Origin: Desulfobacteraceae bacterium
Lineage (GTDB): Bacteria; Desulfobacterota; Desulfobacteria; Desulfobacterales; SKZT01
Reading direction: 5' to 3'
NCBI GenBank assembly: GCA_007127235.1
Contig: SKZT01000078.1
Location: 1 to 34,743, forward strand
DNA length: 34,743 nucleotides
The notes under the pieces are model-generated. The model worked only from the letters and a program-made list of their open reading frames with translations, did not search any database and had not been told where the DNA came from. A program made the position numbers and the translations under genes. Shown here in pieces: positions 18,870 through 22,595 of the stretch (the stretch's first letter is position 1; each line of letters starts with the position of its first letter).

Positions 18870-19256
18870 ATGGGACAGTGGATACCCTTTGCCGAAGGAG
18901 AGTATTTGGTGGAAAGAGCTTATTTGGTGACTCCCCAGGAAACGGCTACACCTTTGGAAGATACCACCATTGAGATTTATACCGGCCGGGATGGACGCAG
19001 GCACATGCGGGGAAGTGGCAAGGTAAAAAACATTTTGATGGTTAAGCTGCTGGAAGAAGACGATATTATGGATCTTTTGCTGGATCTTGGAGAAGAGTTT
19101 AAGTACCTGATGGAAAATCCTGAATTGCAGGCTGGAAAAGTATTTTCCCCCCATGTAAAGGCAGTAGTCAAGTTTAGTCCCAAAAACCAATGGAAACAAG
19201 TGTCTCAGGAAAATTTTGAGAGCCTACTCGCACGCCTTCAATTTGTCGAGCATTGA
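18870..19256 (+). CDS. Hypothetical protein, 128 aa
   Basis: ATG with aaaggagttg SD 13 bp after the zinc-ribbon gene; no family recognised. Confidence 0.6.
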   Translation: MGQWIPFAEGEYLVERAYLVTPQETATPLEDTTIEIYTGRDGRRHMRGSGKVKNILMVKLLEEDDIMDLLLDLGEEFKYLMENPELQAGKVFSPHVKAVVKFSPKNQWKQVSQENFESLLARLQFVEH

Positions 19257-19269
19257 TTGAGAAATCGGC

Positions 19270-19806
19270 TTACTGATTCACTTTTCTCTGGAAAATATCC
19301 AGTGCCCCAGGCAAAAGGCGCCGAATAAATCCCTCCCGGTCTCTTTCGTGGAGATTTTTGTAAGAATTATAATCCGGGTGTGATTCTGATAATTCGGGAG
19401 GGTTGAGGCGGCAAAAATCCTTATATTCCAGGAAGTTACCAATCAGTTCGATAAGGCTTTTCACGGAGCAATCTTTGAATCTTATCCATCCAAGACGACC
19501 CATCATTTCGAAACGGCATAAATCGGATAAAAACAAATGAATTTCCATCACATAACGCTGGTCATCATTTTCAATGTAGGAAAATTTTGATGCGTGCCCG
19601 AAATTTAAAACTCCCATGATAAGTTCATAAAACGCCACGGCACTTGCTTCACCCGGTTGAGACAAATAAAGCAAGGTTTTATCGGAAATATCCGAAAGCC
19701 TGGTTTCAGGAGAAAAATTTTCCCCAAATCGTTTTTTCCATGGCCCGAAAGCTTTTTGTTCCAATGTTTTTGTTCTAAAATCGTTTAGCTCGACAATCTT
19801 TGCCAT
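19270..19806 (-). CDS. Hypothetical protein, 178 aa
   Basis: Intact ORF convergent with the 128-aa gene; no family recognised. Confidence 0.6.
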   Translation of the reverse strand: MAKIVELNDFRTKTLEQKAFGPWKKRFGENFSPETRLSDISDKTLLYLSQPGEASAVAFYELIMGVLNFGHASKFSYIENDDQRYVMEIHLFLSDLCRFEMMGRLGWIRFKDCSVKSLIELIGNFLEYKDFCRLNPPELSESHPDYNSYKNLHERDREGFIRRLLPGALDIFQRKVNQ

Positions 19807-19882: not shown

Positions 19883-21541
19883 TCAAGATTTCAGAGGGAT
19901 TCTTGGGGTTTTCATTTTTGCCTCCTGCTTTTTTATATGATTCCGACAAGCCAGGGCAAAATCTTCGGGATAGTGACCATTGATCCAGCGAAGTTGAGCT
20001 TCGCTGAATGAACCGGGGGATTGGGGAATTTTGGGTAAAAAGGCATAGATAAGACGTTGGTCGCTATCTTTCGAGTCTATTCTCTTTGCATATTCGATGG
20101 TGGTGACCATCTTCGCACCCATACATGATAATATCTTCATGGTCATCAGTATGGCCTGATCCAGTGAATTCCGCAAAGGGATATCGGTTTCCAAAATATT
20201 GCCTATAGGATTTATACACATCAGCTGGATTTCCCACTGGGATGTTTGAGCTTTTGGAACAAATACCATGACATGCTTGTCTTCATAAATAATCAGACTG
20301 CTTTCACTCCGGGTATCATCTAATCTCCGGTTGTTTCGGATGGCTTTAATATAGCATTCGAAAAAATGCCGGCCGGTTTGCTTATGAAATTGACGGATAA
20401 ATTCTGCGATCATATCTCCGCAAGCAAATGATGCAATTTGATCTGGGCCGGTTTGGGAGTCGACCATTGAGGGAATCAATGCAAATTGTTGGTGAATTTG
20501 CTGATGAGAAGCATGGAGCCTGTATTTTGTCGGAGAAAAATCAAAACCGTAGTTCCAGCCCCAAAGGGTACAATTAAAAACTGGAGAGCCTGTCTTCTGA
20601 TTTTTCGATTGTTTGTTTAAAATCTTTTTTCTAAGACTTTCCAATTGGGCAATGGTGAGGGTTTTTCGTGTGACGGATACGGGAATTGCAAGCTGGCGGG
20701 CAAGGCGTGTGTAAGTCCGCTGGTAGTATAGGTGTCGCATTCCGTATATGTCGGCTAGGGTTAGTTCCCCGATATGATAACGAATCGAATCGTGAGCCAT
20801 GTTAGCTGCATAATGACCCCACGGTATATAGCTGTTTCGTCTCAAATATTCGAACACGTGACTGGGGCCCTCTTTTAACTCTCCCACAATTTCACTTTTA
20901 CCCTGCGCCCCCGGTCGCAGCACCATCACTTCTCTGTATGCGGCGGGAAGATTCCGGTTATTGGCGAGTGTTTCAAACAAATCGTGGTTTTTGATCAAAG
21001 GGGTTTCTTCTCCGTTTTTATCTCTTTGATAAATCAGCCCTGTAGGATTTATGCCATCGGATTCGAAACAAAATTCGCAGGTGATTTTAGCCAGGGCAAT
21101 CAGGTCTTCGGGATCAGTGCCGGTTTTTGCCAATGCCAAAAGCAGCGGTTCCGGTAATGATTCAAAAAGCAACTCTCTGTTTTGTTTCAAATGGGGTTCA
21201 TGGGTAAACCATTTTTCCATAAAATTGGCAAAAGATACTTTTTCAGGTTCCGAAAGATAAATTAATTCCGGATTTTGGGCTTTTTTATCTGCCCAGCTTT
21301 TGGAAATATAGGTGGTTCCCCGGAAATCAAATGGATTTGGGATTTCATAAATGGTGTCGGCTTCCGGTTCTTTTACGGTGCCGGCGGGAAAATTGGCAAC
21401 GTTTTTATTCAACCGGCCATCTTTGAATCGGCCCAAATATTCGATAAAGTCGTTTTCTCTGAAATTATCTACATCAAAATTGGGTTTGTGAACACCGTAA
21501 ATGAAATGCCCTGAAGGCAAAACACAGGTTCTGACTTTCAT
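19883..21541 (-). CDS. Putative diverged GalT/HIT-superfamily (nucleotidyltransferase-like) protein, 552 aa
   Basis: HASHQQIHQQFALIP aligns by eye with GalT GCSNPHPHGQ (second His and Gln kept); then SLIIYEDKHVMVFVPKAQTSQWEIQLM like the second-repeat GalT motif (ENEHxxALVPxWAxWPxExLL); upstream IPWGHYAANMAHDSIRYHIGELTLADI. Confidence 0.45.
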   Translation of the reverse strand: MKVRTCVLPSGHFIYGVHKPNFDVDNFRENDFIEYLGRFKDGRLNKNVANFPAGTVKEPEADTIYEIPNPFDFRGTTYISKSWADKKAQNPELIYLSEPEKVSFANFMEKWFTHEPHLKQNRELLFESLPEPLLLALAKTGTDPEDLIALAKITCEFCFESDGINPTGLIYQRDKNGEETPLIKNHDLFETLANNRNLPAAYREVMVLRPGAQGKSEIVGELKEGPSHVFEYLRRNSYIPWGHYAANMAHDSIRYHIGELTLADIYGMRHLYYQRTYTRLARQLAIPVSVTRKTLTIAQLESLRKKILNKQSKNQKTGSPVFNCTLWGWNYGFDFSPTKYRLHASHQQIHQQFALIPSMVDSQTGPDQIASFACGDMIAEFIRQFHKQTGRHFFECYIKAIRNNRRLDDTRSESSLIIYEDKHVMVFVPKAQTSQWEIQLMCINPIGNILETDIPLRNSLDQAILMTMKILSCMGAKMVTTIEYAKRIDSKDSDQRLIYAFLPKIPQSPGSFSEAQLRWINGHYPEDFALACRNHIKKQEAKMKTPRIPLKS

Positions 21542-21572: not shown

Positions 21573-22478
21573 TCAGGTCAATGATAATAAATAGGATCTC
21601 AGGTTAGCCTTTTTATTGTTTAAACCAAATTTCATTCTTAGATTTTTACGGTGAAAGTTTATGGTGGAAATGGAAACGTTTAAAACATCGGCAATTTCCT
21701 TACTGGATTTGCCGTCTTTTATCATTGTTGCCACCTGAAGTTCCTGGGGTGTCAGAATTTTGCTCAGTGAAGATAGACGTTCCAAAAAAGGTGAAATAAT
21801 ATCTTTAAGATGAGCTTCAATGATGTTTACAATAATGGCCTGGTTTTTATTGAGGTTGGAAATTTTAAGTTTTTCCATGTAGGGAAAAACCAGTTCTTTG
21901 ATATTATCGAGAACTCTTTGTTCAAGATCAACCCTGTCCAACTCTCGCTGTTTTAAAATAACCTTGAGAGCAATATTGGATTCTTCCAGTTCTTTTTTTT
22001 GTTTCCTTAAAAGCTTTTCATTTTCCCTGAGTGATTCTTCCACCAATTTTAAAGCTGTGATTTCTTCGTGGCTGACGATGACTTTTGCGGATTGAGGATC
22101 GGAAAATCGAACAACCCGCATGTTAAACCAGTGTTTCTGGGAGGGTGAGTGACATGGATAATCGAATATGAATTCATTTATATCCCCGTTAATGACGCTT
22201 CGGATACCTTCAGCAGCCTTTTGACTGATTTGAGCATCATCGCCGGTGGCCCGGTCGCAGATTTCGAGATAATTATAACCTGCTGAATCAAAATCGGCTT
22301 TCATATCATTACCTTCGGCAAACTTTTGCCAGGACCGGTTGGTGGCAAGTATCACCCCGTTTTTATCCAGGATTGCTATGTTGGCTGAAAGAGAATCAAA
22401 AATAGTTCTGGCAAAAGAATGATTCAGCCAAATTTGTTTTTTTTGAGGCGAAATTTCAGCATATGGTTGCTTGCTCAT
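21573..22478 (-). CDS. PAS-domain LuxR-family transcriptional regulator
   Basis: N-terminal SLSANIAILDKNGVILATNRSWQKFAEG (PAS-like), coiled coil, C-terminal LTPQELQVATMIKDGKSSKEIADVLNVSISTINFHRKNLRMKFGL (LuxR HTH). Confidence 0.85.
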   Translation of the reverse strand: MSKQPYAEISPQKKQIWLNHSFARTIFDSLSANIAILDKNGVILATNRSWQKFAEGNDMKADFDSAGYNYLEICDRATGDDAQISQKAAEGIRSVINGDINEFIFDYPCHSPSQKHWFNMRVVRFSDPQSAKVIVSHEEITALKLVEESLRENEKLLRKQKKELEESNIALKVILKQRELDRVDLEQRVLDNIKELVFPYMEKLKISNLNKNQAIIVNIIEAHLKDIISPFLERLSSLSKILTPQELQVATMIKDGKSSKEIADVLNVSISTINFHRKNLRMKFGLNNKKANLRSYLLSLT

Positions 22479-22595
22479 TGTGTTCTTGTTTCCAATTTGT
22501 TTTTCCTTGATTCTAAAAAATTTAAGATCCATAATGCAAAAAAATTAAATGGTGATGCATAAAATTGCATTTTATAATCAAATACTTTTTAAAAT

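Follow-up and report, generated by a model that had tools for sequence, protein, structure and literature searches.

The window analysed here, a stretch of 34,743 nucleotides taken at its full length from a Desulfobacteraceae bacterium, raises the question of what kind of protein is encoded by an open frame of 552 residues (P0001, ATG start, positions 19883..21541, minus strand) that matches no family in either Pfam or NCBIfam. An earlier note, which gave no strand, had read the product as a highly diverged protein of the GalT/HIT superfamily with its two repeats in the GalT order. The minus strand is the coding strand of this frame, and AAGGAG, which resembles a ribosome-binding site, lies directly 5' of it. 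The segments quoted in that note, IPWGHYAANMAHDSIRYHIGELTLADIYGMRHLYYQRTY (residues 239-277), HASHQQIHQQFALIP (343-357), SLIIYEDKHVMVFVPKAQTSQWEIQLM (415-441), and FSEAQLRWINGHYPEDFALACRNHI (512-536), are all present in the translation. The curated GalT model PF01087 has no match to the protein, and the Ap4A phosphorylase model PF19327 has none to it or in its own genome; DUF4922 was searched for in the relatives without a match, and weak matches among 76 family members are stray ones, for example to PF01230 (HIT) at E 0.019. A phmmer search with the protein retrieved no meaningful relative of solved structure, and the literature yielded no paper on such a GalT-fold family.

An AlphaFold2 model built from 76 homologs and no templates (pLDDT 89.9, pTM 0.90) was compared with the PDB by Foldseek. 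At E <= 1e-3 there are 19 matches, every one of them to GalT, a GalT-like protein, or ADP-glucose phosphorylase. The best of these is Arabidopsis ADP-glucose phosphorylase (E 2.7e-8), followed by the uridylyltransferase 6k5z and by E. coli and human GalT, and the GalT-type structures are in turn followed by the single-HIT proteins Ap4A phosphorylase, Fhit, and HinT. Coverage of the core is loose, with TM 0.62 by target, rmsd 6.4, and 11% identity. The order of three strands, a helix, and two strands that is expected of a HIT repeat occurs twice in the model (residues 217-357 and 417-504). The first HIT-like repeat (residues about 218-357; 20471..20890, minus strand) comprises strands 217-224, 227-234, and 243-248, helix 262-283, and strands 322-332 and 350-357. 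The second, which runs on into a GalT-like C-terminal tail (residues 416-536; 19934..20296, minus strand), was placed by profile alignment with GalT and by matrix rank, and contains the segments PKAQTSQWE and PxSPGAFSEAQLRWINGHYPEDFA. Both AlphaFold2 and Foldseek thus find the HIT alpha/beta core, with two repeats per chain. Its predicted fold places the protein in the GalT branch of the HIT superfamily, as an uncharacterised variant; the earlier note had supposed as much, and the match of the model lies far above chance. The only significant viral fold match, a weak one, is a 1065-residue protein of the giant virus Hokovirus HKV1 (BFVD A0A1V0SEY9; E 5e-4, TM 0.19).

Comparison with a profile (A2) built from 31 GalT-family proteins of this phylum lends weak backing to the GalT relationship, with the order of the repeats as claimed. 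Hhalign aligned residues 153-534 in order with a score of 37.3 (P 7e-4, probability just 26%), against at most 27.9 for 40 column-shuffled controls and 19.3 for the reversed profile; the bulk of this signal comes from the second repeat and the tail. Position matrices were also scanned over a background of 765 unrelated ORFs from the family loci, 225 of which are long proteins. The second-repeat segment ranks 2nd among the 765 and 1st among the long proteins, which is above chance, and the GalT motif AGASxxHxHxQ ranks only 197th of 765, so that the first motif alone is not above chance. This motif and the low identity could be taken as signs of an accidental resemblance and a different fold, a reading that is scarcely credible given that the model is template-free, that its top matches are exclusively GalT-type and then HIT, and that the ordered profile match exceeds its shuffled controls. 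Chance resemblance was rejected on the basis of the fold search.

GalT-type enzymes are usually recognised by the motif HxHxQ. Among 109 homologs, the place of the first His is occupied by Gln in 106 and by Met in 3, and the nucleophile-position His and the Gln that follows it (H350 and Q352) are present in all 109, as are N330 and G332; S345 is conserved in 108. The loss of the first His, which the earlier note had seen in the QIHQQ of a single sequence, is a property of the family, and so is the retention of His350 and Gln352. These residues belong to a putative active-site segment, S345-H346-Q347-Q348-I349-H350-Q351-Q352-F-A-L-I-P357 (20471..20509, minus strand). The corresponding GalT pattern in this phylum is NxGxxAGASxxHxHxQxxxxP, and the spacings from Ser to His (5), His to Gln (2), and Gln to Pro (5) are equal in the two groups; the loop from N330-x-G332 to S345 is longer than in GalT. 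In the profile alignment, the residue that faces the GalT nucleophile is not His350 but His346, which is invariant as well. We favour the His350 register because of these GalT-like spacings and because it is the best offset in the query when the AGASxxHxHxQ matrix is scanned with any offset allowed; the earlier note had read the segment in this register too. A strand of the AlphaFold2 model starts at His350. His350, rather than His346, would accordingly occupy the place of His166 of E. coli GalT, and Gln352 that of Gln168, as far as the sequences can tell; the E. coli numbering (N153, G155, S161, H164, H166, Q168) was verified against the chain of 1hxp. In GalT, His166 is the residue that becomes uridylylated, the phosphates are held by Gln188 of human GALT (E. 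coli Gln168), and the site is lined by E. coli Ser161 and by human Asn173, which corresponds to E. coli Asn153 by the offset of +20 (PMC5081055).

The metal sites of GalT have fared differently from these residues. Zinc in E. coli GalT is bound by C52, C55, H115, and H164, and human GALT is without a complete site of this type (PMC5081055). In the present family, the E. coli-type ligand set is not found: C155 is present in 103 of 109 members and C158 in 11, the place of H164 holds Gln or Met, and the place of H115 is uncertain at such a distance. The second metal site, of one Glu and three His, is likewise absent, as the HwH of GalT aligns to QRLIY, in which there is no His. Since human GALT also does without a complete E. 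coli-type zinc site, its loss need not end activity. The second option of the earlier note was a degenerate, binding-only relative, that is, a catalytically dead protein of GalT fold whose nucleotide binding would serve sensing or regulation. Such a protein would explain the replaced first His and the missing metal ligands, and signalling genes often adjoin the family, a PAS-LuxR protein being the neighbour in the window. However, this option is unlikely, as none of the nucleophile, Gln, Ser, and Asn positions has been lost: His350, Gln352, and Asn330 are invariant and Ser345 is nearly so in a family that extends down to 42% identity. Moreover, the first His of GalT is itself a zinc ligand (PMC5081055), so that it and the other zinc ligands could coherently have disappeared together while activity was retained. 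The other option of that note, a nucleotidyltransferase or phosphorylase, is the one that the results support.

The best explanation, and a probable one, is that this member of the HIT superfamily is an enzyme with the GalT fold and that, as a transferase or a phosphorylase, it passes on a nucleoside monophosphate in two steps via nucleotidyl-His350. His350 would attack the alpha-phosphate of a nucleotide donor, upon which the leaving group would depart, and phosphate or a phosphorylated acceptor would then lift the nucleotide from His350. Gln352, Ser345, and Asn330 would hold the phosphate, and neither the zinc nor the iron site of GalT would be used. The 150-residue N-terminal domain, which is peculiar to this family, probably gives the pocket for the donor or the acceptor its shape. 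Family, predicted fold, and invariance were computed, and from them we infer the chemistry, the covalent intermediate, and the role of the N-terminal domain.

This N-terminal extension (residues 1-150; 21092..21541, minus strand) is strongly conserved, for example at F13, H18, N26, R28, G37, N47, N50, P52, E66, N69, F73, and G75. A separate model of residues 1-212 (pLDDT 87.3, pTM 0.60) found no fold match in the PDB (best E 1.1), and a profile of residues 1-150 found nothing in the GalT profile. The resemblance of P9-x-G11-x-F13 to the N-P-L-T-G-x-W start of GalT may be noted as a lead only. These approximately 150 extra residues, the lost metal-ligand pattern, and the linkage of part of the family to glnD go beyond what the earlier note contained.

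A scan of GTDB contigs located 221 related places, and the titles of the best 80 of these, which were retained, are Desulfobacterota/Deltaproteobacteria almost throughout. Whole genomes of relatives carry the family in 23 of 58 cases, a count that includes two broken or partial copies (G037, in three pieces, and G043, an 84-residue piece), and a phylum-wide draw gave 21 carriers among 198 genomes; a search of a plasmid collection gave no matches. In G037, the gene appears as three separate matching stretches (L102, L104, L106), which reflect either a broken copy or assembly errors. Apparent fusion partners in the long frames L097, L098, and L100 are upstream read-through and nothing more. In the 109 members, whose identity to the query goes down to 42%, 74 positions show no more than one exception; they are scattered over the full length, and by this measure the family is constrained along its whole sequence and is not decaying.

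The gene upstream in the window encodes a PAS-LuxR type regulator (21573..22532, minus strand), 31 nt away and on the same strand, and neighbourhood comparison shows the pair again in L001, which is the closest GTDB-contig sequence to the query among the best 80 of 221 places (70% identity). A frame of 178 residues (19270-19806, minus strand) lies 76 nt downstream on the same strand; it adjoins few relatives and has no match in Pfam or NCBIfam. A further frame of 128 residues (18870-19256, plus strand) is also without a family match. Among the 72 loci with usable flanks, neighbours vary and no operon conserved throughout the family was found; the recurrent neighbourhoods are the PAS-LuxR pair of the window and L001, a polyketide-synthase-adjacent group in Desulfosarcina, and a glnD group. 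In the Desulfosarcina group (L031, L033, L037, L039, L041, L047, L070), the family gene is oriented divergently next to very large polyketide/fatty-acid-synthase-like proteins of 2000-2700 residues or to a related neighbour; PS-DH and thioesterase-like domains were recognised in one piece from L039.

The glnD group comprises seven of the 72 loci (L014, L015, L021, L030, L040, L060, L076). There, glnD follows the family gene at a distance of 113-365 nt in the same orientation, and amtB, glnB, and glnA come after it. An unannotated protein of 240 residues precedes the family gene in several of these loci. When mapped on the tree, with the inclusion of L023, where the upstream gene alone is shared, the label requires four changes as compared with 7.8 in shuffles, and is thus clustered yet spread across deep branches. 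This arrangement might suggest an enzyme of nitrogen control, related to the glnD system, that acts on PII (GlnB) or glutamine synthetase by removing or transferring UMP or AMP. The linkage reaches deep branches (L060 and the L040/L076/L014 group), which favours this reading, and so does the ability of HIT proteins to bind proteins that carry a nucleotide: a PDB entry of AMPylated GlnA in complex with HinT is among the fold matches. However, such an enzyme is quite improbable: only seven loci show the linkage, six of which fall in a single part of the tree, GlnD-type domains are nearly universal (54 of 58 relatives, as against 23 with the GalT-fold family), which makes their co-occurrence uninformative, and the gene in the window is without glnD linkage. 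The glnD group hints at nitrogen-related nucleotidylation chemistry but does not prove it. A bolder version of the two-step nucleotidyl transfer set out above, which we offer tentatively, is a new transferase or phosphorylase activity on a substrate that GalT-type enzymes are not known to use, possibly a nucleotidylated nitrogen-control protein, with a metal-free QxHxQ site and the new N-terminal fold as a cap.

The closest solved structure would lead one to consider instead that ADP-glucose phosphorylase, or another activity already known in the GalT family, is present behind a diverged sequence. Full-length GlgC is found in 5 of 58 relatives, all five of which are carriers (hypergeometric p 0.007). 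However, 18 of the 23 carriers are without a full-length GlgC match, the genome of the window among them, where the search gave weak nucleotidyltransferase matches only, and ordinary GalT-family genes accompany the family in all 12 of the carriers checked outside the order; a known activity is accordingly very improbable. ADP-glucose phosphorylase as a general role is disfavoured by the absence of GlgC from most carriers. PF01087 is absent from the genome of the window and occurs in 4 of the 58 relatives, and it is present in each of the 12 carriers outside the order that both searches covered in the phylum samples. This coexistence with GalT-family genes speaks against UDP-hexose:galactose-1-phosphate uridylyl transfer. 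An ordinary GalT, or a replacement for GalT, was rejected on the same grounds, together with the unmatched PF01087 model.

Overall, a large and highly conserved Desulfobacterota family outside Pfam and NCBIfam, kept in approximately 40% of the sampled relatives, now has a likely enzyme class and named candidate key residues (His350, Gln352, and His346). In addition, its invariant QxHxQ version of the motif shows that motif searches overlook some GalT-type enzymes.

Three known systems come nearest to the family, which differs from each of them. ADP-glucose phosphorylase At5g18200 (PDB 1zwj, 1z84, 2h39) has the double-HIT core in common with the query and provides the best fold matches, whereas the query is approximately 200 residues longer and has a new N-terminal domain and QxHxQ in place of HxHxQ, and most carriers of the family are without GlgC. 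With GalT (PF01087, PF02744; 1hxp, 5in3), it shares the order of the repeats, the N-x-G, the Ser-His-Gln spacing, the P...E of the second repeat, and the PE..A...R tail, but it is without a Pfam match or the zinc and iron ligand patterns, its loop from NxG to Ser is longer, and its first His is Gln or Met. Finally, the single HIT domains of Ap4A phosphorylases, Fhit, and HinT match part of the model, and the central His is kept; unlike these proteins, the query has two repeats per chain, and its third motif position is Gln, not His, as in transferases and phosphorylases.
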